Shown here: piece after piece, positions 2,130 through 20,420 of the stretch
Position numbering within the stretch: the first letter of the stretch is position 1
Layout of the letters: every line of letters starts with the position of its first letter
Origin: Thiobacillus sp.
Lineage (GTDB): Bacteria; Pseudomonadota; Gammaproteobacteria; Burkholderiales; Thiobacillaceae
Assembly: GCF_030696885.1 (NCBI RefSeq)
Contig: NZ_JAUYRI010000017.1
Location: 287,212-351,211, forward strand
DNA: 64,000 nucleotides
Reading direction: 5' to 3'
Position numbers and translations under genes: made by a program
The notes under the pieces: generated by a model
The model's input: the letters and a program-made list of their open reading frames with translations, nothing else
Told to the model about the DNA's origin: nothing
Databases searched by the model: none

Positions 2130-3494
2130 ATGAGCAGCAACGAACACCCCGCCAAACCTGTCGTCAAGGAAGAATCCTTCGGCTACGACCGCAAGACCAT
2201 CGACTACATCCGCAACGCGGCGGCGCACGGCCTGTATGAAATCCGCGGCATGGGTGCCAAGCGCGCACTGCCGAATTTCGACGACCTGGTCTTCCTCGGC
2301 GCCTCGCTGTCGCGCTACCCGCTCGAGGGCTATCGCGAGAAGTGCTCGACCAAAACCGTGCTCGGCACCCGCTTTGCGACCAAGCCGATCGAGCTCGAGA
2401 TTCCCATCACCATCGCCGGCATGAGCTTCGGCTCGCTGTCGGCCAACGTGAAGGAAGCGCTGGGGCGTGCCGCGAGCGAAGTCGGCACCTCGACCACGAC
2501 CGGCGACGGCGGCATGACGCAGGAAGAGCGACAGTCGTCGAAGACCCTGGTCTACCAGTGCCTGCCTTCGCGCTATGGCTTCAACCCGGACGACGTGCGC
2601 CGCGCCGACGCCATCGAGATGGTGATCGGCCAGGGTGCCAAGCCCGGCGGCGGCGGCATGCTGCTGGGGCAGAAAGTGTCGCCGCGCGTCGCCGCCATGC
2701 GCACGCTGCCGGCCGGCATCGACCAGCGCTCGGCCTGCCGCCATCCCGACTGGACCGGCCCCGACGATCTGGCGATCAAGATCCACGAGATGCGTGAACT
2801 GACCGACTGGGAGAAGCCGATTTACGTCAAGGTCGGTGCCACGCGCACCTTCAACGACGTCAAGCTTGCGGTGCATTCCGGCGCCGACGTCGTCGTGGTC
2901 GACGGCATGCAGGGCGGCACCGCCGCCACCCAGACCTGCTTCATCGAGCACGTCGGCATCCCCACCCTGGCGGCGCTGCGCCAGGCGGTGGATGCGCTGG
3001 AAGACCTGAACATGAAGGGCAAGGTGCAGCTCATCGTCTCCGGCGGCATCCGCAGCGGCCCCGACGTCGCCAAGGCACTGGCGATGGGTGCCGACGCCGT
3101 GTCGATCGGCCAGGGCGTGCTGATCGCCTTGGGCTGCAACCATGACAGCTACTGGCAGGACGGCGCACATCATGACGCCACAACGGATTACGCTGCCCTC
3201 GGCACCGCCCCCGGCTACTGCCACCACTGCCACACCGGCAAGTGCCCGGTCGGCATCACCACCCAGGATGCGGTGCTCGAGCAGCGGCTGACCCCCGAGG
3301 TCGGCGCGCGGCATCTGAAGAACTACCTGAAGACGCTGAACATGGAGTTGACGACCATCGCGCGCGCCTGCGGCAAGCAGAATGTCCACCACCTCGAGCC
3401 GGAGGACCTGGTCGCGCTGACCATCGAGGCTGCCGCGATGGCGCGTGTGCCTCTGGCCGGGACAGCGTGGATTCCCGGCGTAACCGGGTGCTGA
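2130..3494 (+). CDS. glxD: FMN-binding glutamate synthase family protein, GlxD / MgsC-like
   Basis: A 454-residue protein matching the FMN/iron-sulfur synthase domain of glutamate synthase. Visible are a TIM-barrel segment with ITIAGMSFGSLS and QGAKPGGGGML, the GGTAATQ region, the phosphate-binding VSGGIRSGPDV-AKALAMGADA, and the cysteine cluster C-HH-C-HTGK-C near residue 370 that binds a 3Fe-4S centre in GltB. It should carry out the reductive amination of 2-oxoglutarate with the nitrogen released by GlxB. ATG 2130 is one base after the glxC stop. No mgdABCD-type N-methylglutamate dehydrogenase genes follow, so whether the product is glutamate or N-methylglutamate stays open. Confidence 0.88.
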   Translation: MSSNEHPAKPVVKEESFGYDRKTIDYIRNAAAHGLYEIRGMGAKRALPNFDDLVFLGASLSRYPLEGYREKCSTKTVLGTRFATKPIELEIPITIAGMSFGSLSANVKEALGRAASEVGTSTTTGDGGMTQEERQSSKTLVYQCLPSRYGFNPDDVRRADAIEMVIGQGAKPGGGGMLLGQKVSPRVAAMRTLPAGIDQRSACRHPDWTGPDDLAIKIHEMRELTDWEKPIYVKVGATRTFNDVKLAVHSGADVVVVDGMQGGTAATQTCFIEHVGIPTLAALRQAVDALEDLNMKGKVQLIVSGGIRSGPDVAKALAMGADAVSIGQGVLIALGCNHDSYWQDGAHHDATTDYAALGTAPGYCHHCHTGKCPVGITTQDAVLEQRLTPEVGARHLKNYLKTLNMELTTIARACGKQNVHHLEPEDLVALTIEAAAMARVPLAGTAWIPGVTGC

Positions 3495-3560
3495 TGATTT
3501 CCTAGAACCCTGCGGACGGCAGCGTGGCGCGCTTGTCGTTATTTCTCAATGGCCCGAAAA

Positions 3561-3588
3561 AAAGCATTGGGGTTTTCGCCAATGCTTT
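3561..3588 (-). terminator. Hairpin with T-tract in the minus direction
   Basis: AAAGCATTGG and CCAATGCTTT form a perfect 10-bp stem around an 8-base loop. Read on the minus strand the stem is followed by seven T residues, an intrinsic terminator shape; read on the plus strand only three T follow. The plus-strand glx genes end 66 bases upstream, so it may act weakly for them. No minus-strand gene enters from the right. Confidence 0.5.
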
Positions 3589-3678
3589 CCGCATGTATCG
3601 GGTGCCTTCACGCGTTCGGATTGCGAGCCCCCTGGTGAATCTTTCCGCACGGCTTTTCTTATTCGTTGACGCCAAATC

Positions 3679-3694
3679 GGTGCGGCCATGCACC
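3679..3694. promoter_or_regulatory. Inverted repeat GGTGC-N6-GCACC upstream of the sigma-54 promoter
   Basis: A perfect 5-bp inverted repeat about 90 bases upstream of the -24 element, where an enhancer-binding protein could bind. The half-sites point the opposite way from the classical NtrC site (GCACC-N5-GGTGC), so I do not call it NtrC. It may be chance. Confidence 0.25.
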
Positions 3695-3782
3695 AAAAGA
3701 ATGCTCGGATCAGACCTCGCGGATACGCAAGAGCGCTCAATTATTTCTTTACATTCATGCAGATAAACGGAGAGTGCTGCTA

Positions 3783-3798
3783 TGGCACGGCGGTTGCT
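3783..3798 (+). promoter_or_regulatory. Sigma-54 (-24/-12) promoter of the guanidine/urea operon
   Basis: TGGCACGGCGGTTGCT matches the RpoN consensus TGGCACG-N4-TTGCW, with GG (3784-3785) and GC (3796-3797) separated by exactly 10 bases. A start site near 3808-3810 leaves a leader of about 50 bases before the ATG at 3860. Sigma-54 control fits a nitrogen-source operon activated by NtrC or a dedicated activator. Confidence 0.8.
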
Positions 3799-3859
3799 TA
3801 TTGGCTGTTGAGTATTACGAATATTCACTCTGGTAATACCCATCACCTAGGAGCCCACC

Positions 3860-4858
3860 ATGAACCTGAAGCACATCCGAAGCACCCTCAAGACGCTTTT
3901 CACCCGGCTGCTGATTCCGCTCGCTGCCGTGATGACCCTCACGGCCCACGCCGCCCAACCCCTCAAAATCGGCTACAGCGACTGGCCCGGCTGGGTTGCC
4001 TGGCAAGTCGCCATCGACAAGGGCTGGTTCAAGGAAGCCGGCGTGCCGGTGACGTTCGAGTGGTTCGACTACACGGCGTCCATGGATGCCTTCGCTGCCG
4101 GCAAGATCGACGCTGTGACCATGACCAACGGCGATGCGCTCGTCACGGGTGCGGCAGGCGGCAAGAGCGTCATGATCCTGATCAACGACTACTCCAACGG
4201 CAACGACATGATCATCGGCAAGCCGGGTGTCCGTACCCTCAAGGACCTGAAGGGCAAGAAGGTCGCGGTGGAGATGGGATTCGTCGAGCACCTGCTGCTG
4301 CTCAACGGTCTGAAGAAAGCCGGCATGAAGGAGTCCGACGTCACGCTGGTGAACGCGAAGACCAATGAGATGCCGCAAATGCTGGCATCCGGCGCCGTCG
4401 CTGCCGTGGGTGCTTGGCAGCCGATTTCCGGCCAGGCGATCAAGTCGGTTCCGGGCGCGCGTCCGATCTATACGTCTGCCGACGAACCCGGCCTGATCTA
4501 CGACGTGCTGGCTGTCAATCCGGCGAGCGCCAAGCAACGCCGCGCCGACTGGGTCAAGGTCGTGAAGGTGTGGGACCGCGTGGTGAAATACATCAACGAT
4601 CCCAAGACCCAGCCCGATGCGGTGAAGATCATGGCCGCCCGTGTCGGCGTGTCGCCCGAAGCCTATCTGCCGCTGCTCAAGGGCACCAAGCTCCTGACCC
4701 TCGACGAGGCGAAGAAAATCTACGTCAAGGGCGATGGCTTCAAGACGCTGTACGGCTCGACCAAGATCGCGGATGAGTTCAACGTCGCCAACGAGGTGTA
4801 CAAGAAGGCCGAGGACGTGAACAGCTATCTCGACGCGTCCTTTACCTTCGCCAAGTAA
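3860..4858 (+). CDS. ABC transporter periplasmic substrate-binding protein, urea-carboxylase-associated type
   Basis: A 332-residue periplasmic protein with a clear Sec signal peptide (charged start, hydrophobic stretch, cleavage after AHA near residue 31). The mature protein starts with the nitrate/taurine/thiamine-precursor type fold ([14 protein letters not shown], then [10 protein letters not shown] and [14 protein letters not shown]). Proteins of this kind are a recurrent partner of urea/guanidine carboxylase operons. It should deliver the nitrogen compound to the permease encoded next. A GGAG ribosome site lies about 6 bases upstream of ATG 3860, and the sigma-54 promoter sits about 60 bases upstream. 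The ligand cannot be read from sequence; guanidine or a derivative is inferred from the operon. Confidence 0.9.
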
Positions 4859-4877
4859 GCCGGGGCGCGAAGCGGAA

Positions 4878-5834
4878 ATGAGCCTGATCGCCATGCTGAC
4901 CGGAACCGACGAGCGCAAGCGCGTGCTGCTGGCGGTCGGTTCGTTTCTGCTGCCCCTGTTCGTCTGGTGTTTGGTGAGCTATGTCCCGTTCATCTGGCAC
5001 CCCAAGGTCGAGGTCACCGTTCCCGGTGGCATCGACTATTTTCAGGTCGGCATGCTGGTCGACAAGCCGCAGTTCGACGACGAGGTGGCCTACGCGCGCG
5101 AACAGAACCTGGCGCTTCCGGCCGGCAAGCCGGCCAACCCCATTTACCTGCCTGCGCCGCACGAAGTGGCGCAGGCTTTCTACACCGGCTTCACCAAGAT
5201 GCCTGTGCAAAAAGATGCACCGTGGCTGCACGAAAGCCTGTGGCACAGCATCCAGATCATTTTCTGGGGCTTTCTGATCTCGTCCATCATTGGCGTGCCG
5301 CTCGGCATCCTCGCCGGGACCTACGCCAGTTTTGGACGCCTGACTGAGCCCTTCATCGAATTCTTCCGCTATCTGCCCGCACCCGCTTTCGGCGCGCTGG
5401 CGGTGGCCGTGCTGGGCATCTACGACGGTCCCAAGATCGCGATCATCGTCATCGGCACCCTGTTCCAGCAGGTGCTCATCGTCGCCAACACCACGCGCAA
5501 GCTCGAAGTCACCATCGTCGAGGCGGCGCGCACCCTGGGCACCCGCGGCGTCAAGCTGCTTACCAAGGTGGTGGTTCCCGGCATCCTCCCGGACCTCTAT
5601 CGCGATCAGCGTATTTTGCTGGGCTGGGCGTGGACCTACCTGATCGTCGCCGAACTCATCGGCACCAGCTCGGGCATCACCTTCTACATCACCCAGCAGG
5701 CGCGCTACCAGAACTTCGACAACGTCTACGCCGCGATCATGATCATCGGCATCATCGGTTTCGGCACCGACCTGATCCTGGCCCGCTTCGGTCGCCGCCT
5801 GTTCCCCTGGGATCGCAGCCAGGATCGCCGCTGA
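4878..5834 (+). CDS. ABC transporter permease, nitrate/sulfonate/urea-carboxylase type
   Basis: A 318-residue integral membrane protein of the binding-protein-dependent transport family. The first helix lies at residues 15-38, followed by a periplasmic stretch, with the remaining helices from residue 115 on. The EAA-like coupling loop ([27 protein letters not shown]) spans about residues 215-240. The gene follows the binding protein by 19 bases and precedes the ATPase by 11. The periplasmic insertion before the second helix (about residues 40-110) is long compared with SsuC/TauC and is typical of the version found with urea carboxylase genes. Confidence 0.9.
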
Positions 5835-5845
5835 GAGGGCAAGCC

Positions 5846-6757
5846 ATGAACGATCAGAACCTGCCCAGCTACCTGGATCAGTCGGAGGCCGTGAGGGCGC
5901 GCTTCGACCGGATCAACCAGCGTGAGACCATTCTCGAAGTGCGCGGCCTCGGCAAGCGCTACCGCTCGCCCCAAGGCGAGACCGAGGCGCTGCGCGGGAT
6001 TGACTTCAGCGTCCGCCGGCGCGAATTCGTCTGCGTCATCGGCCCCTCCGGCTGCGGCAAGTCGACCCTGATCCGCATTCTCGCCGGGCTGGAAGATCAC
6101 ACCTCCGGCGATGTGCTGCTCGACGGCAAGCCGGTCACCGGACCGGGGCAGGACCGAGGCATGGTGTTCCAGGGCTATTCGCTGTTTCCCTGGCTGACGG
6201 TAAAAAAGAATGTGATGTTCGGGCCGCAGATGAATGGCCGCAGCCACGACGAGGCGGAGCGGGATGCCCGAACCTGGCTGGAACTGGTTGGCCTGGACAA
6301 GTTCGCCGACGCCTATCCGCATCAGCTGTCCGGCGGTATGCGCCAGCGCGTCGCCATCGCCCGAGCGCTGGTCAACCAGCCTCGCATCCTGCTGATGGAT
6401 GAGCCTTTCGGCGCGCTCGACGCCCAGACCCGCTCGAAGATGCAGTCGCACCTGATCGACATCTGGAAAAACATCGACGTCACGGTGCTGTTCATCACCC
6501 ACGATCTCGATGAGGCGATCTACCTGGCCGACCGCATCCTGGTGCTGAAGGCCCATCCCGGCGAGGTGCAGGAAGTGATCGAGGTGTCGGTGCCGCGGCC
6601 CCGCTCGCCGGGCCAGTTCAACTCGTCGGAATTTCGTGCCACCAAGGCGCGCCTGGAGGAGCTGATCCATCCGGCACCGGAACCGCTGCCGGAAGACGAG
6701 CAGGCGGTGAAACCGCACATGATTCGCTTCACCGACGTGCACGACAACGTCGAGTAA
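5846..6757 (+). CDS. ABC transporter ATP-binding protein, nitrate/sulfonate/urea-carboxylase type
   Basis: A 303-residue ATPase: Walker [10 protein letters not shown] near residue 70, Q-loop [10 protein letters not shown], signature LSGGMRQR, Walker [12 protein letters not shown], and switch histidine in [12 protein letters not shown] 5846 was chosen because GAGAGGGC lies just before it; the open frame itself extends further upstream inside the permease gene. It has about 30 extra N-terminal residues before the ATPase fold and an acidic C-terminal tail. It powers the importer formed with the two preceding genes. Confidence 0.92.
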
Positions 6758-6767
6758 GAGGCTCACT

Positions 6768-7544
6768 ATGCGCTGGTCCGATCTCACCTGGTCCGAAATC
6801 CCAGACGTGCTGGCCCGTTGCGGGCAGGCCGCCATCCTGCCGGTGGGCGCCACCGAGCAGCACGGCCCGCATCTCGGCTGCGGCGTCGACTTCGTGATCG
6901 CCGAGCAGCTGTGCGCCGCCGTCGCCGCACAGACCGGCGTGCCCATGCTGCCGACGCTGCCGTACGGCTGTTCGCTCGGCCACAGCCGGCGCTGGCCTGG
7001 CACAATCGCGCTGCAGCCGATCACCCTCATTGAAGTCGTCAAGCAGGCTGGCGACTGGGCCTATCACAGCGGCATCCGTCGCCTGTTCATCGTCAACGCG
7101 CACGTCACCAATGCCGCGCCGCTGCGCTGCGCGCTGGAGATGCTGCGCGCCGAGCACGACGACCTGATGGTCGCGGTGATCAATACCGCGACGCTTAGCG
7201 AGCGGGTGCGCCAGTTCCACTCGGCCGACGCCGCCGACTGGCACGCCAACGACGCCGAGGCCTCGATCATGCTGTCCATCGCCCCGGCGGGCGTGCGCCC
7301 GGACAAGCTGGCTGAGGCCGACGATCCGGACCGCACCTGCGGCTGCGTCTTCGCGCATCCCGTGAATCGCACCAGCCTCAACGGGGTCACCGGCACGCCC
7401 AGCCTTGCCAGCGCGGAGAAAGGTCAGCAGTGGTTCGACTGGCTGGTGGAAGACCTCGCCGCACTGGTTCGCACAGGCAGTGTGGAGACGCCGCCGCTCG
7501 ACCATTCCTATTTCGGGGACATTGTCTCCGCTACAAACCGATAG
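6768..7544 (+). CDS. Creatininase-family amidohydrolase
   Basis: A 258-residue protein of the creatininase/FAPy-deformylase fold. Metal-ligand blocks are visible: [13 protein letters not shown] near residue 30, [10 protein letters not shown] near 110 (in place of the usual NGHGGN), and [10 protein letters not shown] near residue 155. The family hydrolyses cyclic or linear amides using Zn, Mn or Fe. It sits inside the operon, 10 bases after the ABC ATPase and 13 before glnT2, so it probably acts on the imported compound or a breakdown product (creatinine, formamide-like or N-substituted amide). The exact substrate is unknown. Confidence 0.8.
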
Positions 7545-7557
7545 ACAAGGACGCATC

Positions 7558-8970
7558 ATGAATACGATCGACGACACCGCCGTGCTGGAAAAACCGGACA
7601 CCGGTACCCATCATCCGGCCGAGGCAACCGCGCAACTGCAGCGCGAGCTGACCGACAAGGGCGTGAAATACTGCATCGGCGCCTACGTCGACATACACGG
7701 TGTGCCCAAGGCCAAGGTCGTGCCGATCGCCCACCTCGGCCAGATGGCCAAGGGCTCCGAGCGCTACACCGGCTATGCGCTGGACGGCCTCGGCCAGGCG
7801 CCGAACGACGACGAACTGACCTCGGTGCCGGACCTCGACCGCGCCATCCAGTTGCCGTGGGAGCCGAAGATCGCCTGGATTCCGGCCGACAACCATTTCC
7901 AGGGCAAGCCCTATGCGCTCAACACCCGGGTCGCGCTGAAGAACCAGCTCGCCGAGGCGGCCGAGCTGGGCTACGGCATGAACCTCGGCATCGAGTGCGA
8001 GGTGTTTCTGCTCAGGCAGGATGCCGACGGCAGCCTGTCGGTGCCGGTCGCCGATGACAAGCTGACCAAGCCCTGTTACGACGTGCGCGGCTTCGTCGAC
8101 AACTTCTCCTGGCTCGACAAGATGGCCACCTCGATCAACGATCTTGGCTGGGACCTGTATTCCTTCGACCACGAGGACGCCAACGGCCAGTTCGAGTTCG
8201 ACTTCAACTACGCCGATGCGCTGACCACCTGCGACCGGCTGACTTTCTTCCGCTTCATGGCCAAGCACTACGCCAAGGAAGAGGGGCTCCTCGCCACCAT
8301 GATGCCCAAGCCCTTCGCCGACAAGACCGGCAACGGCGCCCACTTCAACATGTCGCTCTATGATCTCGCGAGCGGCCAGAACCTGTTCGCCTGCGCCCCC
8401 GAGGACGACCCCCACGGCATTGGTCTGACTCCGCTCGGCTACAGTTTTGTCGCCGGCATCCTCAAGCACGGCCGCGCCCTGTGCGCCGTGTTCGCGCCGA
8501 CCGTGAACAGCTACAAGCGCCTGGTCCGGCGCGGCGCCATGAGCTACTTTTCCTGGGCCCCGGTGTTCAACTCCTGGGGCTCCAACAACCGCACCAACTC
8601 GGTCCGGATCCCGGCCGGCGGCGGGCGCTGCGAATCGCGCAACGCCGACGGTGCGGTCAATCCCTATCTGGCCGCGACCCTGGTGCTGGCCGCCGGACTG
8701 GAAGGTGTTCGCGAAGGGCTGAATCCGGGCAACCCGAACGAGGACAATCTGTACGCGATCAGCGAGGAAGAACGCAACGCGCGCGGCATCGAGTTTCTGC
8801 CGCAGACCCTGCAGGAGGCGGTCGCCGCTTTTGCTGCCGACCCGCTGGTCGAGGCCACCCTGGGCCGCGAACTGCGCGACGAATTCATCCGTTACAAGAC
8901 CGAGGAGTGGGAGGCCTACCACCTCTCCGTCTCCAAGTGGGAAGTGGAACGCTACAGCTACATGTTCTGA
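7558..8970 (+). CDS. glnT: GlnT-type glutamine synthetase (second copy)
   Basis: A complete 470-residue enzyme. The N-terminal beta-grasp segment ([17 protein letters not shown]) and catalytic blocks [34 protein letters not shown] (about residue 315) and [11 protein letters not shown] are all present. ATG 7558 is preceded by ACAAGGA. It ligates an amine to glutamate, and in this operon could trap ammonia liberated from guanidine or urea, or an amine released from a substituted substrate. The N-terminal 25 residues before the fold are non-conserved. It is a divergent paralogue of the fragment at 2-529. Confidence 0.9.
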
Positions 8971-8977
8971 GCCGATC

Positions 8978-9448
8978 ATGAAGATGAGCCTGGAAAAGCC
9001 CGCCACCCTGGTCAGCCGGATCAGCGTCTCGCTGCCGCCCGACCTGCTTGCGGAACTCGACCATATGGTCGAGAGCCGCGGCTACGGCAGCCGCTCGCAG
9101 GCGATCGGTGAGATGGTCAACTACCAGCTCGCCGAGCACAAGCGGTCGCTCGGAAGCGAGGTCATGGCCGGTACGCTGACGCTGCTCTACAATCGCGACA
9201 CGCGTGGCCTGCAGGGCAAGCTGGCGGACATTCAGTACCAGCACATCGCCGAAGTCATCAGCTCGCTGCACGTGCACCTCTCCGAAGACCAGATGCTGGA
9301 GGTGCTTCTGGTTCAGGGCCCAGCCACCCAGCTCCAGGCCATCGCCGATGAGATGATTGCCCTGCGCGGCGTCATCACCGGCCACCTGAAACTGCTGGCG
9401 GCGGTCATCCCGCCCCTGCATGCCCCTGCAAGCGATACGAAAGAATAG
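8978..9448 (+). CDS. NikR-like ribbon-helix-helix regulator with altered metal site
   Basis: A 156-residue protein. Residues 14-52 form the ribbon-helix-helix DNA-binding domain (RISVSLPPDLLAELD, RGYGSRSQAI) and residues 60-145 an ACT-like regulatory domain aligning with NikR (LHVHLSEDQMLEV, IALRGVITGHLKLL). Of the four canonical nickel ligands, the two histidines of LHVH (H98, H100) are kept, but the positions of E. coli H76 and C95 are Tyr87 and Met106. A nearby H89 could partly compensate. It lies 7 bases after glnT2 and 2 bases before UAAP1, so it is probably the operon's local regulator. A second ATG two codons in (8984) is possible. Confidence 0.82.
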   Translation: MKMSLEKPATLVSRISVSLPPDLLAELDHMVESRGYGSRSQAIGEMVNYQLAEHKRSLGSEVMAGTLTLLYNRDTRGLQGKLADIQYQHIAEVISSLHVHLSEDQMLEVLLVQGPATQLQAIADEMIALRGVITGHLKLLAAVIPPLHAPASDTKE

Positions 9449-9450
9449 CC

Positions 9451-10257
9451 ATGGATCATCCCGAACTTCTCATCGACAACCCGCCTGTTTCGGCACCGGT
9501 CGACGTGCCCGAGCATTGGCGCCGCTTCGCCCCCGACCTGCCCGAGGACAAGGTGCTGTTCTCCGAACTGGTGCCCGGCGGCGGCCATTGGTCCTATCGC
9601 CTGCCGCGCGGCACTACGCTGCGGATCACTGCGCTCGACGCCGGGGCCAACCTGTCGCTGGTGCTGTATTCGGCGCAGGAAAAACTCGAGCGTTACAACA
9701 TGCCCGATTCGCTCAAGGCCCAGCACACCGCGCACTACACGCGCGGCCACGTGCTGATGAGCGACATGGGCCGGGCCATGGCCTCGTTCACGGCCGACAG
9801 CCTGGGCTGGCACGACCCGCTCGGCATGCTGCTCGACAACCGCCTGATGCATGAAAAATACGGCGAGCATTCCTACCAGGCCAACCGCAACGGCATGACG
9901 CGTTCCGGCCGCGACGGCCTGCTGATCGAGATCGGAAAATACGGCCTGGCCAAGCGCGATCTGGTGGCGCCGGTCAATGTCTTCAGCAAGATCACGGTCG
10001 ACGACGAAGGGCGCTTCCGCTTCGTGCCCGACCATGCCCAGGCCGGCGACTTTGTCGACCTGCGCATGGACATGGACGTGCTGGTCGCGTTTTCCGCCGC
10101 GCCGCATCCGCTCAACCCGGCGCCGGTTTATCCGGCCTGCAAGGTCGGTCTGGCCGTGTGGCGCTCCGGCCCTGCGCCCAGGGACGACTACTGCCGCGGC
10201 TTTCGCCCAGAGAACGCGCGCGCCCTGCACAACACCGATATGCTCTACCTGACCTGA
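9451..10257 (+). CDS. DUF1989 protein, urea amidolyase-associated UAAP1 type (probable carboxyguanidine deiminase subunit)
   Basis: A 268-residue DUF1989 protein, the longer of a tandem pair (next gene 10268-10927). Family blocks visible are WSYRLPRGTTLRI, ALDAGANLSLVLYS and KRDLVAPVNVFSKI. In pseudomonads two DUF1989 proteins made beside the carboxylase form CgdAB, which deiminates carboxyguanidine to allophanate; the older name is urea carboxylase-associated protein. The gene lies 2 bases after the NikR-like gene. I cannot say which of the pair corresponds to CgdA or CgdB. Confidence 0.88.
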   Translation: MDHPELLIDNPPVSAPVDVPEHWRRFAPDLPEDKVLFSELVPGGGHWSYRLPRGTTLRITALDAGANLSLVLYSAQEKLERYNMPDSLKAQHTAHYTRGHVLMSDMGRAMASFTADSLGWHDPLGMLLDNRLMHEKYGEHSYQANRNGMTRSGRDGLLIEIGKYGLAKRDLVAPVNVFSKITVDDEGRFRFVPDHAQAGDFVDLRMDMDVLVAFSAAPHPLNPAPVYPACKVGLAVWRSGPAPRDDYCRGFRPENARALHNTDMLYLT

Positions 10258-10267
10258 GGCACCTGCC

Positions 10268-10927
10268 ATGACTACTGCCGCCATTCGCATCCAGGAAAGC
10301 ACGCTCGCCCCCGAGGCTGCCGTGCTCGACCACACCCTGCCCGCCGGTGAACCCTACCTGCTGGCGATCGACAAGGGCCAGACGCTGCGCATCGTCGACC
10401 TCGAAGGCAATCAGGCCGTCGACGTCATCTTCTACAACCGCGACGACGGCGCCGAGCACTACAGCGCCACCGAAACCATCCTGCGCCAAGGCGGCATCTA
10501 CCTGACCACCGGCTCAGTGCTGTACAGCGACGACGGCAACCCCATGCTGACCATCGTCGCCGACACCTGCGGTCGCCACGACACCCTCGGCGGCGCCTGC
10601 GCGGCCGAGAGCAACACGGTGCGCTACGCCTTGCAGAAAAAGTTCATGCACAGCTGCCGCGACAATTACCTGACGGCGCTGCAGCATGCCGACATCGGCC
10701 TGGGCAAGCGTGACCTGGTGCCCAACATCAACTTCTTCATGAACGTGCCGGTGACCGAAGCGGGTGACCTGAGCTTCGCAGACGGTGTCTCGGCGCCCGG
10801 AAAGTACGTCGAACTGCGCGCCGAAATGAACCTGTGGATGCTGGTCTCCAACTGTCCCCAGCTCAACAATCCCTGCAACGCCTACAATCCGACACCGGCC
10901 CGGTTCCTCCTCTGGAACCCGCAATAA
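10268..10927 (+). CDS. DUF1989 protein, urea amidolyase-associated UAAP2 type (probable carboxyguanidine deiminase subunit)
   Basis: A 219-residue DUF1989 protein, partner of the preceding gene. Visible blocks: LRIVDLEGNQAVDVIFYN, the cysteine-containing DTCGRHDTLGGAC near residue 105, KRDLVPNINFFMNV, and NCPQLNNPCNAYNPTP at the C-terminus. Expected role is carboxyguanidine deiminase together with UAAP1. Its TAA at 10925-10927 is followed at once by two hairpins resembling a guanidine-II riboswitch and then by the carboxylase gene. Confidence 0.88.
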   Translation: MTTAAIRIQESTLAPEAAVLDHTLPAGEPYLLAIDKGQTLRIVDLEGNQAVDVIFYNRDDGAEHYSATETILRQGGIYLTTGSVLYSDDGNPMLTIVADTCGRHDTLGGACAAESNTVRYALQKKFMHSCRDNYLTALQHADIGLGKRDLVPNINFFMNVPVTEAGDLSFADGVSAPGKYVELRAEMNLWMLVSNCPQLNNPCNAYNPTPARFLLWNPQ

Positions 10928-10930
10928 ATC

Positions 10931-10982
10931 CGGCCCGGGACGACCCGGGCCGGCCGTGTATAGATGCGGGACGCCCCGCACC
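10931..10982 (+). ncRNA. Candidate guanidine-II (mini-ykkC) riboswitch upstream of the carboxylase
   Basis: Two tandem hairpins. P1 is a perfect 9-bp stem (10931-10939 with 10944-10952) closed by the loop ACGA at 10940-10943. P2 is a perfect 6-bp stem (10965-10970 with 10975-10980) closed by ACGC at 10971-10974. They are joined by 12 bases. Guanidine-II riboswitches consist of two GC-rich stems with ACGR loops that dock on each other through the central C-G. P1 fits exactly; P2 differs at the fourth loop base. P2 ends 11 bases before the ATG at 10992, so the switch could control ribosome access. No T-tract follows, arguing against terminators. Confidence 0.65.
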
Positions 10983-10991
10983 AGGTAAACG

Positions 10992-13900
10992 ATGTTCAAG
11001 AAAGTCCTGATCGCCAACCGCGGCGCCATCGCCTGCCGCATCATCCGCACCCTGCGCCGCTTGGGGGTGAAGTCGGTCGCTGTCTATTCCGAGGCCGATC
11101 GCCACAGCCTGCACGTACGCCTCGCCGACGAAGCAGTGGAAATCGGCCCGGCCCCGGCGGCGCAGAGCTACCTGCGCGCCGAGAAAATCCTCGAAGCTGC
11201 GCAGGCCACCGGCGCCCAGGCGATTCACCCCGGCTACGGCTTCCTCTCCGAGAACCCTGGCTTCGCCGAGGACTGTGCAGCGGCCGGCATCGCCTTCATC
11301 GGCCCCAGCCCAGACCAGATGCGCGCCTTCGGACTCAAGCACACTGCGCGCGATCTGGCCGAGCACAACCAGGTGCCGCTGCTGCCGGGCTCGGGATTAT
11401 TGAGTGACACCGGCCACGCCCAGGCCGAAGCCGCGCGCATCGGCTACCCGGTGATGCTGAAGAGTACCGCCGGCGGCGGCGGCATCGGCATGCGGCTGAT
11501 CTGGAGTGCCGACGAGCTGGTGGAAGCCTTCCAGTCGGTCGAGCGGCTGGCGCGTGCCAACTTCAAGGAGGCGGGCATCTTCCTGGAAAAATACGTTGAG
11601 CACGCACGCCACATCGAAGTGCAGATCTTCGGCGACGGCAAGGGGCACGTGGTCGCGCTGGGCGAGCGCGACTGTTCGGTGCAGCGGCGCAACCAGAAGG
11701 TCATCGAGGAAACCCCCGCGCCGGGCCTCACCGATCTGCAACGCAAACAATTGCTCGCCACCGCCGTGCGCCTCGGCGAGGTGGTCGGCTATCGGTCCGC
11801 CGGCACGGTCGAGTTCGTCTACGACACCTTGAGCGGTCAGTTCTACTTCCTGGAAGTGAACACGCGGCTGCAGGTCGAGCACGGCGTCACCGAGGAAGTC
11901 ACCGGCGTCGATCTGGTCGAGTGGATGGTGAAAGAGGCCGCCGGCGAACTGAATCTATCTGGATTCAAGGCCGAACCCCAAGGCGCGTCGATGCAGGTGC
12001 GACTCTACGCCGAAGACCCGGGCAAGGACTTCCAGCCCGCCGCCGGCGTATTGACCGAACTGGTGTTCCCGCAGGGTGCGCGGATCGAGACCTGGGTCGA
12101 GCGCGGCGCCGAGGTGCCGCCGTTCTACGACCCGATGGTGGCGAAGCTCATCGTCAAGGGTCGTGACCGCACCGAGGCGCTGGAAAAAATGCAGCAGGCG
12201 CTGGCGAATACCCGCATCGCCGGAATCGAGACCAACCTCGGTTACCTTGGCCAGATCGTGCGCGATGCGGTGTACGTGGAAGGGCGCCAGACCACGCGTT
12301 ATCTGAATGCCTTCCGCTACCATCCCGCGACTGTCGACGTCATCGAACCTGGGGTGCAGTCGAGTATCCAGGACTGGCCGGGCCGCACCGGCTACTGGGA
12401 CGTCGGCGTGCCGCCGTCGGGGCCGATGGATGCGCTGGCGCTGCGGCTCGCCAATCGCCTGGCCGGCAACGCCGAAGGAATGGCTGCGCTCGAGTTGACC
12501 GTCGCCGGCCCCACGCTTCGCTTCAACTGCGACGCAGTGATCGCGCTCGCCGGCGCCGAGATGGGCGCCGAACTCGACGGGGTGCCGTTGGCCAACTGGG
12601 CTGCGCATGCGGTGAAGGCCGGTTCGATCCTCAAACTCGGCGCGATCAAGGACACCGGCTGCCGCGCCTACCTCGCGGTGCGCGGCGGTTTTGACGTGCC
12701 GGATTATCTCGGCAGCAAATCGACCTTCACGCTCGGCCAGTTCGGCGGCCACGCCGGGCGCACGCTGCGGGTCGGCGATGTGCTGCATGTTTCAGCATCG
12801 GAATCCGCGGTCAGCGAGAATACGCTGCCCGCCGCGCTGATCCCCGCCTACACCCACGCGTGGGAAATCGGCGTGCTCTACGGCCCGCACGGCGCGCCGG
12901 ATTTTTTTACCGACGCCGACATCGGGATGTTCTTCGCCACCGACTGGGAGGTCCATTACAACTCTAGTCGCACTGGCGTTCGACTGATCGGTCCGCGTCC
13001 AGAATGGGCGCGCAAGGACGGCGGTGAAGCCGGTCTGCATCCGTCCAACATCCACGACAACGCCTACGCTATCGGTGCGGTCGACTTCACCGGCGACATG
13101 CCGGTGATCCTCGGGCCTGACGGCCCCAGCCTCGGCGGCTTCGTCTGCCCGGCGACCATCGTGCAGGCCGAGCTGTGGAAGATGGGCCAGCTGCGTCCCG
13201 GCGATACGGTGCGCTTCAAGCGCCTCTCGCAGACGCAGGCCGAACAGATGGAAGCGACGCAGGATGCCGCCATCGCCAGCCTCGCTGCCCCGGCCGCGCC
13301 TGTATTGATCGCAGATAACGGGCCGCTCGCCGAGCCGGTGCTGCACCGCACGCCCGAAACCGATAACCCCGTCGCCGTCGTCTACCGCCGCGCCGGCGAC
13401 AAGTACCTGCTCATCGAATACGGCCCGCTGGTGCTCGACCTCAACCTGCGCTTCCGCGTGCATGCGCTGATGACGCATCTCCAGGCGATGGCCGTGCCGG
13501 GCAGCCTCGACCTCACCCCCGGTATCCGCTCGCTGCAGGTGCACTACGATTCGCGCGTGCTGCCGCTGAGCAAATTGATGGACCTGCTGCTGACCGCGGA
13601 AAAGGCACTGCCCGCGATCGAGGACATGCAGGTGCCGACCCGCATCGTTCACATCCCGCTGTCGTGGGACGACGCTGCGACCAAATTGGCCATCGAGAAG
13701 TACATGCAGTCGGTGCGCAAGGATGCGCCCTGGTGCCCCTCCAACATCGAGTTCATCCGCCGCATCAACGGCCTCGACTCCATCGAAGAAGTGAAGCGGA
13801 TCGTCTTCGACGCCAGCTACCTGGTGATGGGCCTGGGTGACGTCTACCTCGGTGCGCCGGTGGCCACCCCGGTCGACCCGCGCCATCGCCTGGTCACCAC

Positions 13901-14594
13901 CAAGTACAATCCCGCCCGCACCTGGACCCCGGAAAACGCCGTCGGCATCGGCGGCGCCTATATGTGCGTGTACGGCATGGAAGGCCCCGGCGGCTACCAG
14001 TTCGTCGGCCGCACGCTGCAGATGTGGAACCGCTGGCGGCAGACCGCCGACTTCACCGACGGCAAGCCGTGGTTGCTGCGCTTTTTCGACCAGGTGCGCT
14101 TCTTCCCGGTGAGCGAAGAAGAGCTGCTGAAAATCCGCGAGGATTTCCCGCTCGGCCGCTACCAGCTGAAGATCGAGGAAACCACCTTCAGCCTGCGCGA
14201 ATACAACCAGTTCCTCGCCGACAACAGCACGTCCATCACCGCCTTCAAGACGCAGCAACAGGCCTCGTTCGACGCCGAGCGCGAGCGCTGGCGGGAAAGC
14301 GGCCAGGCCGAGTACGCCAGCGACCTGACGGTGGCCGAAGCCGCGCCCGACAGCGAACTCGACCTGCCGGAAAATGGCCGCGCCATCGCCAGCCATGTCG
14401 CCGGCAACGTGTGGAAGGTGGAAGTGGAGGAGGGCACCAAGGTGAAGCAGGGCGACCCGCTCGTCATCGTCGAATCGATGAAGATGGAATTCGCCGTGAT
14501 GGCGCCGTGCGACGGCCGCATCCACAAGGTGTTCTGCCGCGAGGGCGGGCAGGTGTCCGCCGGGCAGGACCTGCTGGTGCTGGTGAGCGAGTGA
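10992..14594 (+). CDS. Biotin-dependent guanidine/urea carboxylase
   Basis: A 1200-residue multidomain enzyme. Residues 1-450 are biotin carboxylase (IANRGAIACRI, GGGGIGMRLIW, HIEVQIFGDG, EVNTRLQVEH). Residues about 455-745 match the KipA/allophanate hydrolase subunit 2 fold and 785-990 the KipI/subunit 1 fold; these form the carboxyltransferase. Residues 1125-1200 are the biotinyl domain with the biotin lysine in ESMKMEF (Lys1164). The enzyme carboxylates urea or guanidine using ATP and bicarbonate. Enzymes encoded with the two DUF1989 proteins have been shown to prefer guanidine. The ACG-loop hairpins directly upstream support this. The separate allophanate hydrolase follows 10 bases later, so it is not the fused yeast-type amidolyase. 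Confidence 0.93.
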   Translation: MFKKVLIANRGAIACRIIRTLRRLGVKSVAVYSEADRHSLHVRLADEAVEIGPAPAAQSYLRAEKILEAAQATGAQAIHPGYGFLSENPGFAEDCAAAGIAFIGPSPDQMRAFGLKHTARDLAEHNQVPLLPGSGLLSDTGHAQAEAARIGYPVMLKSTAGGGGIGMRLIWSADELVEAFQSVERLARANFKEAGIFLEKYVEHARHIEVQIFGDGKGHVVALGERDCSVQRRNQKVIEETPAPGLTDLQRKQLLATAVRLGEVVGYRSAGTVEFVYDTLSGQFYFLEVNTRLQVEHGVTEEVTGVDLVEWMVKEAAGELNLSGFKAEPQGASMQVRLYAEDPGKDFQPAAGVLTELVFPQGARIETWVERGAEVPPFYDPMVAKLIVKGRDRTEALEKMQQALANTRIAGIETNLGYLGQIVRDAVYVEGRQTTRYLNAFRYHPATVDVIEPGVQSSIQDWPGRTGYWDVGVPPSGPMDALALRLANRLAGNAEGMAALELTVAGPTLRFNCDAVIALAGAEMGAELDGVPLANWAAHAVKAGSILKLGAIKDTGCRAYLAVRGGFDVPDYLGSKSTFTLGQFGGHAGRTLRVGDVLHVSASESAVSENTLPAALIPAYTHAWEIGVLYGPHGAPDFFTDADIGMFFATDWEVHYNSSRTGVRLIGPRPEWARKDGGEAGLHPSNIHDNAYAIGAVDFTGDMPVILGPDGPSLGGFVCPATIVQAELWKMGQLRPGDTVRFKRLSQTQAEQMEATQDAAIASLAAPAAPVLIADNGPLAEPVLHRTPETDNPVAVVYRRAGDKYLLIEYGPLVLDLNLRFRVHALMTHLQAMAVPGSLDLTPGIRSLQVHYDSRVLPLSKLMDLLLTAEKALPAIEDMQVPTRIVHIPLSWDDAATKLAIEKYMQSVRKDAPWCPSNIEFIRRINGLDSIEEVKRIVFDASYLVMGLGDVYLGAPVATPVDPRHRLVTTKYNPARTWTPENAVGIGGAYMCVYGMEGPGGYQFVGRTLQMWNRWRQTADFTDGKPWLLRFFDQVRFFPVSEEELLKIREDFPLGRYQLKIEETTFSLREYNQFLADNSTSITAFKTQQQASFDAERERWRESGQAEYASDLTVAEAAPDSELDLPENGRAIASHVAGNVWKVEVEEGTKVKQGDPLVIVESMKMEFAVMAPCDGRIHKVFCREGGQVSAGQDLLVLVSE

Positions 14595-14604
14595 GGAATA
14601 GACA

Positions 14605-16401
14605 ATGAAACCATCGCTCGACATCGCCACCCTGCGCCAGCGCTATCAGTCGGGCGAACTCACGCCGCTTGCACTGGTGGACGATCTGCTCGGCCGGCTG
14701 GGCAGCGAAGACAGCCACGCCATCTGGATCAGCCGTCTCGACGCCGACACCCTGCGGGCCTATGCAAGGAAGCTCGAAGGCCAGGACATCGCGATCCTGC
14801 CGCTCTACGGCATCCCCTTCGCCATCAAGGACAACATCGATCTCGCCGGCCTGCCCACCACCGCCGGCTGCCCGGAGTATGCGTATACGCCTGAGCGACA
14901 CGCGACCGTCGTTGCGCGCCTGATCGATGCCGGCGCGATTCCGCTGGGCAAGACCAATCTCGATCAGTTCGCCACCGGATTGAACGGCACCCGTTCGCCC
15001 TACGGCGCCTGCCGCAACGCCTTCAATCCCGATTTCATTTCCGGCGGTTCCAGTTCCGGCTCGGCCGTCGCCGTGGCGCTGGGACTCGTCAGCTTCAGCC
15101 TCGGCACCGATACCGCCGGCTCCGGCCGCGTGCCCGCCGCGTTCAACCAACTGGTCGGCCACAAGCCGAGCTGCGGCGCGCTCTCCACCCGCGGCGTGGT
15201 GCCCGCGTGCCGCTCGCTCGATGCGGTGTCGATCTTCGCGCTCACCGCCGAGGACGCCGAGCGCGTGCTGGCGGTCGCTGCCGGCTTCGACGCCGAGGAC
15301 GAATATTCGCGCCCGCTGGCGCCGCACGGATTCGACTTCGGCCGCGCGCCCGGCTTCCGTTTCGGCGTGCCGATGCAGAAAGATCTGGAATTCTTCGGCA
15401 ATGCCGAGGCGGAGCAGCTGTTCGGCGAAGCGGTGGCCAGGATGACATCGCTCGGCGGCACGCCGGTGGAAGTCGACCTCGCCCCCTTCCTCGACACCGC
15501 GCACCTGCTCTACGGCGGCCCCTGGGTCGCCGAGCGCTATCTCGCCATCCGGGATTTCTTCGACGCGCAACCCGAGAACGTCTTCCCGCCGGTGCGCGAG
15601 ATCATCGCCGGCGGCCGCGATATCAGCGCCGCCGACACCTTCGCACACCTCTACACGCTGCGTTCACTCAAACGGATTTGCGATGCGGTGTGGAACGACA
15701 TCGACGTCATGCTCACCCCCACTGCCGGCACGATCTATCGTGTGGACGAAATGCAGGCCGACCCCATCCGCCTCAACGCCAACCTGGGCTATTACACCAA
15801 TTTCATGAACCTGCTCGATCTGGCCGCCACCGCCGTGCCGGCCGGGTTCCAGAACGACGGCCTGCCGTTCGGCGTTACCCTCGTCGCGCCGCCGCACCAG
15901 GACGGTCCGTTGCTGCATTTGGCCTCCAGAATGCAGCAGGCGTTGGGCGGCAAGCTCGGCGCCGCCGATCACGCGCTGCCGCTTGCCGAGAAACTGAATC
16001 TGTTGCCGGACGGCCAGGTCCGGGTCGCCGTCGTCGGCGCCCACCTCTCCGGCCTGCCGCTCAATCACCAGCTCACCGAGCGCAACGCGCGTTTGGTGGG
16101 TGCGGCACAGACCGCGCCAACATACCGCTTCTATGCCCTGCCGGACGGCAAGCGCCCCGGCCTCATCAAGGTGGAAGCGGGCGGCGCATCGATCGCCTGC
16201 GAAGTCTGGGAAATGCCCAGCAGCCAGTTCGGTTCCTTCGTCGCAGGCATTCCCGCGCCGCTCGGCATCGGCAAGCTGGAACTCGCCGATGGATCGGTGG
16301 TGAGCGGGTTTATCTGCGAAGGCATCGGCGTGGCCGATGCGAAGGACATCACGGCGTTCGGGGGATGGCGGGCGTGGTGTCGTGTTTCAACACCCGATTG
16401 A
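14605..16401 (+). CDS. atzF: Allophanate hydrolase
   Basis: A 598-residue amidase-signature enzyme splitting allophanate into two ammonia and two CO2. The Ser-cisSer-Lys triad is readable: Lys75 in FAIKDNIDLAG, Ser149 in GGSSSGSA and Ser173 in DTAGSGRVPA. After about residue 460 comes the second domain typical of AtzF/DUR1-type hydrolases (VAVVGAHLSGLPLNHQL, then YALPDGKRPGLIKV). Length agrees with AtzF. Last gene of the operon; the next gene is on the other strand after 27 bases and no intrinsic terminator is apparent. Confidence 0.93.
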   Translation: MKPSLDIATLRQRYQSGELTPLALVDDLLGRLGSEDSHAIWISRLDADTLRAYARKLEGQDIAILPLYGIPFAIKDNIDLAGLPTTAGCPEYAYTPERHATVVARLIDAGAIPLGKTNLDQFATGLNGTRSPYGACRNAFNPDFISGGSSSGSAVAVALGLVSFSLGTDTAGSGRVPAAFNQLVGHKPSCGALSTRGVVPACRSLDAVSIFALTAEDAERVLAVAAGFDAEDEYSRPLAPHGFDFGRAPGFRFGVPMQKDLEFFGNAEAEQLFGEAVARMTSLGGTPVEVDLAPFLDTAHLLYGGPWVAERYLAIRDFFDAQPENVFPPVREIIAGGRDISAADTFAHLYTLRSLKRICDAVWNDIDVMLTPTAGTIYRVDEMQADPIRLNANLGYYTNFMNLLDLAATAVPAGFQNDGLPFGVTLVAPPHQDGPLLHLASRMQQALGGKLGAADHALPLAEKLNLLPDGQVRVAVVGAHLSGLPLNHQLTERNARLVGAAQTAPTYRFYALPDGKRPGLIKVEAGGASIACEVWEMPSSQFGSFVAGIPAPLGIGKLELADGSVVSGFICEGIGVADAKDITAFGGWRAWCRVSTPD

Positions 16402-16428: not shown

Positions 16429-17175
16429 TCACGCAGGTTGAGGAAGCTCGCCGCCGACCAGAAACAGATCCGCCTCGAAGCCATGGATCGTCCGGTTGTG
16501 CCCGGCGCTGAACTTGGCGTGGCTGCCAGTCAGTTCGCACAGCCATGACTCTTTTGATACCGGCTCGTTGTCCGGCAGGGCATCAGGGGTGAACAAGGCA
16601 ACATTCACGCCGCCCTCGGAATCGCGCGCGGAGAGATACTCGAATGCCTCGATGCCGGCCTGTCGCATCTTCGAACCCAGTTCCTGAGTGGCGGCATAGT
16701 TGGAAGGGTGGGTGAGCTGTTTCTTGTGTGTTGCAAAGGGCGGCGCATGGAGCTGCAGGCCTCGCTCGGTTCGGTATTCTGCCTCCAGCATCGTGTGCTG
16801 GGTGACCAGTTTGTCCTCGGGCGGCACCGTCATGCCCTGCCAGAAGACGAAGCGGTAATAGGCCGCCTCGGCCAGCACGGTATTCAAGCCCAGCGAGCCG
16901 TAGAACAGGCTCGGCTCGATACGCGACCCGAAGCGTGAGCCATGTTTCAGGGGCGGGTAGCGGAAGGGCGTGGCGAGCAGGTAATGTAGCCTTTCCGTCC
17001 CCACACGACGGGGCGGCTTGGTGGCTTCCAGCAGTTCTTCCAGCACGGCCTGGCGCTCTAGCGAGCTGACCAGCTGAGTGGTGGCGACTTCTTCCTGACT
17101 CTCGACCAGGCGGAGCAAACGGCCGGAAATCAGGCCTGCGGTTGCCTTTGCAAGGCAGGCATCCCAGTCGACCAC
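16429..17175 (-). CDS. RES-domain toxin (NAD+ phosphorylase/ADP-ribosyltransferase type)
   Basis: A 248-residue protein with a RES domain in residues 60-230: RLHYLLATPFRYPP, GSRFG, LFYGSLGLNTVLAEAAYYR. RES toxins (as MbcT or ParT) degrade NAD+ or modify proteins. The start is a GTG at 17175-17173 placed immediately after the TAA of the antitoxin gene, so translation is coupled and toxin output is probably kept below antitoxin. Convergent with atzF. The pair interrupts otherwise metabolic gene order and is likely an acquired module. Confidence 0.82.
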   Translation of the reverse strand: MVDWDACLAKATAGLISGRLLRLVESQEEVATTQLVSSLERQAVLEELLEATKPPRRVGTERLHYLLATPFRYPPLKHGSRFGSRIEPSLFYGSLGLNTVLAEAAYYRFVFWQGMTVPPEDKLVTQHTMLEAEYRTERGLQLHAPPFATHKKQLTHPSNYAATQELGSKMRQAGIEAFEYLSARDSEGGVNVALFTPDALPDNEPVSKESWLCELTGSHAKFSAGHNRTIHGFEADLFLVGGELPQPA

Positions 17176-17535
17176 TTACAGCTTGCCCCGCATGGCGTCC
17201 AGATATTCGAGCACGCTGACAAGACCTTGCACGGTCTTGACCTGCTCTGCGGGAACGCCGCCGGTGTGGCGGTTTTCCGTGTTCATCCAGTGACGCATTT
17301 CCTTCTGGCCGCCGCCGACCAATACATAGAGCGCGCGGTAGCAGCGTATGAACAGCAGCGCGAGTTCGCCGGCCTTGCTGTCGGGATCGATCCGTCCCCG
17401 GCTGACCACCGTGCGGTCCTTGCCGATGATTTCCCCAAGGTCGGCCTGACTCATGCCGAGGAATTTGCCGGCATTGCCGAATGCCTCGGACAGCACGCTG
17501 ACCCTGTCTGCATCCTGGGCGAGTGCGAGATTCAT
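17176..17535 (-). CDS. Xre/MbcA/ParS-type antitoxin of the RES toxin
   Basis: A 119-residue protein with an N-terminal helix-turn-helix (KFLGMSQADLGEIIGKDRTVVSR) and the C-terminal DUF2384-like region (ELALLFIRCYRALYVLVGG, HWMNTENRHTGGVPAEQV) typical of antitoxins that plug the RES active site. ATG 17535 was chosen over an upstream in-frame start because AAGGAG precedes it at correct spacing. It is the first gene of the pair and probably autoregulates through the AT-rich repeat at 17562-17578. Confidence 0.82.
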   Translation of the reverse strand: MNLALAQDADRVSVLSEAFGNAGKFLGMSQADLGEIIGKDRTVVSRGRIDPDSKAGELALLFIRCYRALYVLVGGGQKEMRHWMNTENRHTGGVPAEQVKTVQGLVSVLEYLDAMRGKL

Positions 17536-17561
17536 GGCCGCTCCTTGCTGGGTAAAAATGT

Positions 17562-17578
17562 TATATACGCACAATATA
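17562..17578 (-). promoter_or_regulatory. Inverted repeat TATAT-N7-ATATA upstream of the antitoxin gene
   Basis: A perfect 5-bp inverted repeat 27 bases upstream of the antitoxin ATG in a strikingly AT-rich stretch that also supplies a plausible -10 hexamer. Toxin-antitoxin operons commonly carry such an operator for autorepression. Candidate only. Confidence 0.4.
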
Positions 17579-19601: not shown

Positions 19602-20420
19602 TTACAGCGTTGTCACTGCCCAGTCCAGAATCATCCAGCGGCGTTCGCCCCGGCCTTCAACGACCCGCTGGTGGCCGCGGCGCTGGAGCGCGCCGGGAGA
19701 CGTGACGCAATGCCCCTCGCGGAAAGGCAGGGTGGAATGTTCGATGCGCCAGGGCGTGGGGCCGGAGCGGCGGCCGAAGCTGATTTCGATATCGAGCCAT
19801 GCAAGCAGCTGTTCGCGGTCGGGGCGGGCATGGGCGATGAGCGTGTTCAGATCGGCCGCGCGCGGCAGGCGTGCGGCGCGGCCGCGCACGAACATGAAGC
19901 AGTCGCCGGCAACCAGCAGCCGGGTAGGGCGGGCTGGCTGGCGGCCTAATTCTGCCGCTAGTTCGAGCGCCGCCACGCCGCCACGGCTGTGCGGCAGGCG
20001 TTCCCAGATTTCCAGATAGTCCGCTTCGATGCCGGTTTCGGTCATGCGCTCGCCGTCGACGATCATGCGGCCGGTGTCGCGTCCGCCGTTGGTGGGCTGA
20101 ATGTCCATTTGCCGATGCCAGGTGCAGCGCTCGCCGTCGACCTGGGTGACGCCGCAGAAGCCCTGCTGGGTGGCGAGCCAGGCGAGTTGGGCGTCGTCGC
20201 ATTCGGCGAGGCTCGTCACGCCGGCGAAATCCGGCCGGTCGGCAGGAATGCGCAGGTCGGCGTGCCAGCGCGGCGTCTGCAGCCACAGCACGCGGCTCGT
20301 CATGTCGCGCGCGGCGGGCGTCTCCAGCAGGCTGCGCTGCCAGACGCCGAGGTAGTGCGCGGGAACCGGGGCGGGCGGCTCGATCATGTCCGCGGGCGGC
20401 ACGGGGATGCGTGCGGTCAT
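19602..20420 (-). CDS. Conserved hypothetical protein (unrecognised), coupled to a GGDEF-EAL protein
   Basis: A 272-residue soluble protein I cannot assign. No signal peptide or membrane helix is visible. It is rich in Trp ([48 protein letters not shown]), with alternating beta-strand-like segments suggesting a lipocalin-like or beta-barrel ligand-binding fold. ATG 20420-20418 overlaps the stop of the upstream cyclic-di-GMP gene as ATGA, so the two are translationally coupled. A function linked to the signalling protein is possible but unproven. Confidence 0.75.

Follow-up and report, generated by a model that had tools for sequence, protein, structure and literature searches.

In those parts of a 2025 review that deal with the class, the guanidine-II riboswitch is described as a translational ON switch that promotes initiation, and in enterobacteria it is placed before the gene of a carboxylase, behind an importer and a deaminase that are themselves controlled by guanidine-I; the same sections state that the carboxylases linked to such riboswitches mostly use guanidine (PMC12186494). 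In the account of the crystal structures that we draw on, the fourth base of the loop lies outside the helix and is stacked across the dimer, an interaction that favours purines, and the contacts to guanidine are assigned to other parts of the RNA (PMC5486947). For the regulator NikR, the relevant portions of a third paper give the nickel ligands as His76, His87, His89 and Cys95 and the operator of the E. coli protein as GTATGA-N16-TCATAC (PMC7055735).

Here we describe an operon of Thiobacillus sp., contained in a contiguous stretch of 64,000 nucleotides (the window), in which a pair of hairpins of the guanidine-II type precedes a putative guanidine carboxylase gene and a NikR-like protein is encoded upstream. 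The features on which the argument depends are as follows, with the evidence for each in brackets.

3783-3797, + strand: sigma54-type -24/-12 motif TGGCACGGCGGTTGC (sequence)
3812-3839, + strand: dyad GTATTA-N16-TAATAC, candidate operator of the NikR-like protein (sequence)
3860-6757, + strand: ABC importer, consisting of binding protein, permease and ATPase (family search)
6768-7544, + strand: creatininase-family protein (PF02633)
7558-8970, + strand: type III glutamine synthetase-like ligase (TIGR03105)
8984-9448, + strand: NikR-like ribbon-helix-helix regulator with an incomplete nickel site (profile, structure match, ligand alignment)
9451-10257, + strand: DUF1989 protein UAAP1 (PF09347, NCBIfam UAAP1)
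10268-10927, + strand: DUF1989 protein UAAP2 (PF09347, NCBIfam UAAP2)
10930-10953, + strand: guanidine-II P1 hairpin, 10 bp, loop ACGA at 10940-10943 (read directly, Rfam, fold, covariation)
10954-10964, + strand: P1-P2 linker, 11 nt (read directly, partition function)
10965-10980, + strand: guanidine-II P2 hairpin, 6 bp, loop ACGC at 10971-10974, fourth loop base variant
10983-10985, + strand: AGG, probable ribosome-binding element of the carboxylase gene (sequence, inferred)
10992-14594, + strand: putative guanidine carboxylase of the urea-carboxylase family (TIGR02712, 1929.6 bits against a cut-off of 1303.85)
14605-16401, + strand: allophanate hydrolase (family search)
22865-22967, - strand: guanidine-I riboswitch (Rfam, 65.6 bits against a cut-off of 63)

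The genes flanking the hairpins had been named in the initial annotation as those of two DUF1989 proteins and a urea-carboxylase-family protein, and Pfam, NCBIfam and TIGR02712 bear these names out; the carboxylase also matches the K. lactis urea carboxylase-type chain 3va7. We take the UAAP1/UAAP2 pair to be the subunits of a carboxyguanidine deiminase, and the promoter motif was called on what we take to be the -24/-12 consensus of sigma54. Around the operon, a glutamate-synthase-domain protein lies just before it (2130-3494), a second glutamine synthetase-like stretch at 2-526 is 49% identical to residues 294-471 of the operon's own, and behind the allophanate hydrolase two adjacent genes on the - strand (16429-17574) resemble what is presumably a RES-type toxin with its antitoxin.

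Both hairpins can be read directly from the letters. P1 is CCGGCCCGGG-ACGA-CCCGGGCCGG, with a pairing probability of at least 0.987 for all ten pairs in a partition function over 10921-11040, and P2 is TGCGGG-ACGC-CCCGCA, with at least 0.879 for its six pairs in the same calculation, so that the stems and loops first described are confirmed; the original 9-bp stem and 12-base gap were right in position and left out the outermost pair of P1, which makes the stem 10 bp and the linker 11 nt. P2 ends 11 nt before the carboxylase ATG (10992), and at the upstream edge the second DUF1989 gene ends with its stop codon at 10925-10927. The Rfam Guanidine-II model (RF01068) matches over its full length (1-48) with 39.6 bits against a gathering score of 32, at an E-value of 2.1e-4 when the whole window is compared with all 4227 Rfam families and of 2.3e-6 when the genome is searched with this model only. 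One copy, that before the carboxylase, was found genome-wide, in 35 contigs totalling 3.0 Mb of which 150 among 582 first-look candidates were scored. The minimum free energy of 10922-11030 has a z-score of -2.63, an equally good fold arising in 5 of 200 shuffles. Score, P1 stem with an ACGR loop, covarying stems and a site just upstream of the start codon of a putative guanidine-modifying enzyme's gene are all as in RF01068; P2 has the GC-rich stem, of 6 bp, but its loop is ACGC and not ACGR, and we therefore class the element as a variant of guanidine-II and not as one of its textbook representatives. In the predicted folds of 10921-11040 and 10922-11030 no anti-Shine-Dalgarno partner was identified, and the AGG is paired with the carboxylase gene's own codons, an arrangement that does not show switching.

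Failure of the two loops to be conserved where relatives share the gene order had been named as a refutation, and this is not what is seen: the pair is found before the carboxylase in 29 of 35 examined genomes of the window's bacterial family and at 40 of 77 named loci. The 35 are those in which the start of a carboxylase of at least 69% identity was available, which leaves aside startless fragments (e.g. G016, G032, G079, G086) and homologues of 59-63% (G070 contig 37, G062 contig 6, G088). The named loci are the best 80 of 554 relatives, a sample that leans to close relatives, minus L086 and L087 (repeats of G080 and G063) and L164 (no start); within those best 80 the nearest informatively named relative is Thiobacillus sp. 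0-1251 (L087), with a carboxylase 91% identical. More widely, a carboxylase protein search gave matches in 115 of 117 family genomes, among the matches listed mostly biotin carboxylases at ~47%, and the Rfam model, with strict filters, found guanidine-II in 25 of the 117 at E <=0.001, 17 of them above the cut-off. The distance from P2 to the ATG is 10-26 nt in all 29 family pairs. The location within the operon had been thought unusual, a view that finds no support: of the 40 named loci with the pair, 37 have the end of a DUF1989 gene no more than 400 nt above the carboxylase and 33 have a guanidine-I core motif in the up to 10 kb upstream, counts which make the junction between deiminase and carboxylase an ordinary place for guanidine-II, and the location is published, in the part of the review concerned, for Raoultella, Erwinia and Klebsiella (PMC12186494). 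With a score above the Rfam cut-off, retention in relatives and covarying stems, the class first suggested for the hairpins is upheld.

All six family genomes without a normally spaced pair retain P2. The P1 stem is broken in one (G004), the contig stops 85 nt upstream in two (G083, G084), and in G055, G069 and G076 P1 stands ~170 nt above P2 with an insert between them. This insert (loci L190, L166 and L173, respectively) is a ~140-nt element that leaves the hairpins ~150 nt apart as against 11, and its ends are the inverted repeats GGAGAGGCTGAA / TTCAGCCTCTCC, with one base different in G069; the three genomes offer a natural test of linker length. Relatives also hold twelve guanidine-II matches with no adjoining carboxylase (L002-L008, L010, L016, L019, L020, L026), several of which, by eye, precede a start resembling that of a small multidrug-resistance exporter, and in both G063 and G106 one match lies beside a carboxylase and one does not.

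Covariation was assessed against 500 shuffles on 69 pairs, 29 from the family and 40 from named loci, each distinct arm set being counted once; since the pair search admitted only stems with ACG, a 5' G and three or more pairs, pairs 1-3 are biased to pairing, and pairs from the fourth on were not required. Pairs 3-8 of P1 form above every one of the 500 shuffles, and pair 3, within the biased range, forms in all 65 distinct arm sets, four Watson-Crick types being represented, as against a shuffle maximum of 44. P2 is more constant than P1; its pairs 3-6 exceed all shuffles, by a small margin in some cases (pair 4, 53 as against 52), which pairs 7 and 8 do not. Among the distinct arm sets, all 65 of P1 and all 54 of P2 close with a G-C pair, ACG and the 5' G having been required by the search.

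The deviant last base of the second loop had raised the suspicion of a variant, and it proves to be a frequent trait of the family: a pyrimidine occupies the fourth position in 17 of 58 family loops as against 1 of 80 loops of named loci (L162). The family pyrimidines divide between P1 (8/29) and P2 (9/29), both loops being affected only in G034, so that 28 of the 29 pairs have at least one purine-ended loop, and the P2 loop is ACGC, as in the window, in 9 of the 29 genomes with the pair. In a carboxylase tree (400 columns, 29 genomes), 4 of 26 inner branches are well supported and the aberrant row G108 distorts the topology; the well-supported branches force at least two changes for each loop label. 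Many members of one bacterial family thus have a pyrimidine where the guanidine-II loop otherwise has a conserved purine, and these loops constitute a natural test of the structural model of guanidine-II, by analogy with which an ACGC loop in P2 may lower affinity and a pyrimidine at the fourth position is expected to weaken cooperativity and not to bring a new ligand.

Upstream of the importer genes, the operon head of the window (3380-3960) gave no guanidine riboswitch in an Rfam scan to E 2, the one match being a chance one of snoRNA type. What it has are the sigma54-type motif and the dyad GTATTA-N16-TAATAC, a single site in the window's 3.0-Mb genome (backward control, 0). The head is visible in 27 of the 35 family genomes (G091, which has the NikR-like gene, G068, G059, G047, G095, G083, G084 and G073 lack a visible one), and the 27 fall into two kinds. 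Nineteen are of the window type, with the NikR-like gene in 19, a strict sigma54 motif in 18, the inner dyad TATTAC-N14-GTAATA in 18 and a guanidine-I core in none; the other eight all have the guanidine-I core, and neither dyad nor NikR-like gene occurs among them (core 0/19 against 8/8, Fisher p 4.5e-7, uncorrected for relatedness). Six of these eight guanidine-I heads also lie behind a sigma54-type motif (L166, L167, L168, L169, L171, L173), so that guanidine-I and the NikR-type dyad share their place behind the same promoter type. Guanidine-I occurs away from these heads in G000, G034, G075 and G082 (in G082 at 36.5 bits, below the cut-off). All P2 pyrimidines whose head is visible are in operons with NikR-type heads (8/8; the head of G095 is absent), an association that shared descent could explain. 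A tie between P1 pyrimidines and head type was rejected, as these occur with guanidine-I heads (G093, G078) and with NikR-type heads (G052, G106).

The same exchange is seen outside the family. A NikR-like gene stands upstream of the carboxylase at 4 of 78 named loci (L089, L094, L097, L113), where Rfam found no guanidine-I at its gathering threshold and the guanidine-I core is absent; of the remaining 74 loci, 58 have the core (Fisher p 0.0034, again without correction for relatedness). Seven new stretches from the class with the NikR-like gene gave guanidine-I in none and guanidine-II in three by Rfam. Guanidine-I was thus found at 0 of 30 NikR-type heads overall (19 family, 4 named, 7 class). 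The exchange is independent of the transporter, because L090 and L091, with a transporter of the same type (binding protein 70-72%), have guanidine-I and lack a NikR-like gene. With at most two mismatches, the dyad is present at 8 of 11 loci outside the family, exact in G243 and G261, with one mismatch in G279, G451 and L089 and with two in G329, L113 and G308, whose head gene is less certain; the background is 20 of 660 stretches of 320 nt drawn at random from these 11 loci, true sites possibly included. Weaker dyads with four mismatches occur in L094 and G200 (symmetrical, a nearby asymmetrical stretch having three), and L097 has none in the expected place, so that the dyad is not universal outside the family. 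Separately, an inverted repeat GGTGC-N6-GCACC lies at 3679-3694, ~90 nt upstream of the sigma54 motif, and similar GTGC/GCAC repeats were seen by eye in the heads of relatives; an NtrC-type pattern had no match in four operon heads.

The protein encoded at 8984-9448 belongs by sequence to the NikR family, scoring 118.5 bits with NF003381 (cut-off 105; scanned as the 205-aa open reading frame 8831-9445) and matching the NikR structure 2bj1 at E 1.1e-28, and it stays below the cut-offs of TIGR02793 (89.2 against 175.45) and NF002169 (102.1 against 111). Its nickel site is not that of NikR: at the positions of His76, His87, His89 and Cys95 it has Tyr, His, His and Met. Cys95 is lost in all 31 guanidine-operon proteins (Met 20, Thr 8, others 3) and His76 in 26, with His87 kept in 26 and His89 in 24, as against all four ligands in 22 of 22 ordinary NikRs. 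The motif [VLM]QGP likewise separates them, being present in 31 of 31 and 0 of 22, respectively. Among the 14 of the 31 that were compared with the 22, a PPLHAP-like C-terminal tail is found, and E. coli position 5, which we take to be in the DNA-reading strand, is Ser in 13 of 14 and Gly or Thr in the ordinary proteins. In 369 genomes of the class, a profile of the NikR-like proteins hit 41 at E <=1e-25; the eight best, the window's included, sit in guanidine-type operons, the deiminase gene adjoining in seven and the eighth (G329) having importer and ligase only on its stretch. Within ~1.5 kb of 22 lower matches no guanidine-operon genes were found, and 13 further matches had no locus.

The second guanidine riboswitch of the window, the guanidine-I copy on the - strand, precedes an 80-residue piece and then a PAS-GGDEF-EAL gene (20417-22862). 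The piece resembles, weakly, metallo-beta-lactamase-fold proteins of the lactonase kind at their end (38.5 bits, the family cut-off being far higher). In G075 (L077) guanidine-I is followed by an open gene of 260 residues, the end of which is 91% identical to the window's piece, and then by a GGDEF-EAL gene. Among 27 family matches listed, the window's copy has the second lowest score; it may be a relic, and in relatives guanidine may bear on c-di-GMP turnover.

We consider it very probable that the hairpins at 10930-10980 form a riboswitch of the guanidine-II (mini-ykkC) type, with one variant loop, which would act as an ON gate of carboxylase translation, second to a gate operated by the NikR-like protein. 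Transcription would start from the sigma54-type promoter before the importer genes, and the NikR-like protein, as a repressor, would probably gate the operon head at the point where a set of relatives carries guanidine-I. When guanidinium is present, the P1 ACGA and P2 ACGC loops are predicted to kiss through their CG dinucleotides and so to allow the carboxylase to be translated, and probably also the allophanate hydrolase encoded behind it; when guanidinium is absent, translation of both would be low despite the operon mRNA, the riboswitch thereby constituting a second, post-transcriptional gate within the operon. Separate tuning of the carboxylase by guanidine, suggested at the outset, is plausible, the more so here as the search of the operon head turned up no guanidine riboswitch.

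Three other explanations of the hairpins have to be weighed against a functioning guanidine-II switch. The loop pyrimidines of the family, the ACGC loop of P2 among them, would also fit a weakened or decaying switch, in which the P2 pyrimidine cuts affinity and the carboxylase is near-constitutive once transcribed, control having moved to the operon head; the six of 35 family genomes without a normally spaced pair, three of them with the ~140-nt insert, and the restriction of P2 pyrimidines to NikR-type heads, explicable by descent as it is, point the same way. Against this, the window's pair scores above the Rfam cut-off, and the stems, the ACG of both loops and a purine loop in nearly every family pair have been retained, as expected under continued selection for function, and we regard decay as unlikely. 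A change of ligand, with the altered loop sensing another guanidino compound (methylguanidine, carboxyguanidine or one derived from creatinine), could be suggested by the same loop variation and by the creatininase-family protein and the type III glutamine synthetase-like ligase of the operon; we hold it to be very improbable, since the changed base is extrahelical and the guanidine contacts lie elsewhere in the structures as far as described (PMC5486947), and the closing pair is invariably G-C in the distinct arm sets, ACG and 5' G being required there. Perfect, very GC-rich hairpins immediately 3' of a stop codon might, finally, be a transcription terminator, a processing site or a repetitive element and not a ligand-binding RNA, which we judge the least credible of the three: the score is at family level, and ACG loops and covariation recur over many genera at the same gene junction. 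An internal terminator or repeat was rejected, there being no T-run after either stem and one copy found in the genome.

As regards the operon head, the NikR-like protein probably controls the operon through the dyad, judging by the sequences compared here. A more tentative proposal is that guanidine, or a compound closely derived from it, is the effector, and the loss of one ligand type notwithstanding, another metal may serve instead; among the matches listed from the open-licence literature we found no relevant report tying NikR to guanidine or carboxyguanidine. It is conceivable, at somewhat less than even chances, that the subfamily is a receptor of guanidine, or of a close guanidino metabolite, which replaces guanidine-I at GTATTA-N16-TAATAC by the sigma54-type promoter, with guanidine-II kept as the second gate. 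Closely related guanidine operons are headed either by an RNA, guanidine-I, or apparently by a protein, the NikR-like one, and by both together in none of those examined.

In comparison with the known systems, the riboswitch is an extension of a published arrangement. It shares with RF01068 two GC-rich hairpins with tetraloops that start with ACG, a short linker and a place just before the start of a guanidine gene, and it differs in the P2 loop, which is ACGR in the family and ACGC here. As in Raoultella terrigena, Erwinia rhapontici and Klebsiella michiganensis, in the operons that the review depicts, guanidine-II stands directly before the genes of a guanidine carboxylase and allophanate hydrolase, and genes of an importer and a carboxyguanidine deaminase lie upstream of it (PMC12186494). 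What is new is the operon head with its NikR-like gene and dyad and not the position of the riboswitch: the importer/deaminase part, under guanidine-I in the enterobacteria so far as that source describes them, has in the window a sigma54-type promoter and a NikR-type dyad and includes a NikR-like gene, guanidine-I having been found nowhere in it. By sequence, the window protein shares with E. coli NikR (1q5v, 2bj1) the ribbon-helix-helix and the regulatory domain, and its dyad GTATTA-N16-TAATAC has the same 6-N16-6 layout as the E. coli operator in the account cited above; unlike NikR, the window-type proteins are without Cys95, have [VLM]QGP and occur in guanidine operons. Should the NikR-like protein sense guanidine, it would be, as far as the consulted parts of the review and our searches show, the first guanidine-binding transcription regulator, and these operons would show cleanly how an RNA sensor and a protein sensor can stand in for each other at one site behind a single promoter type.
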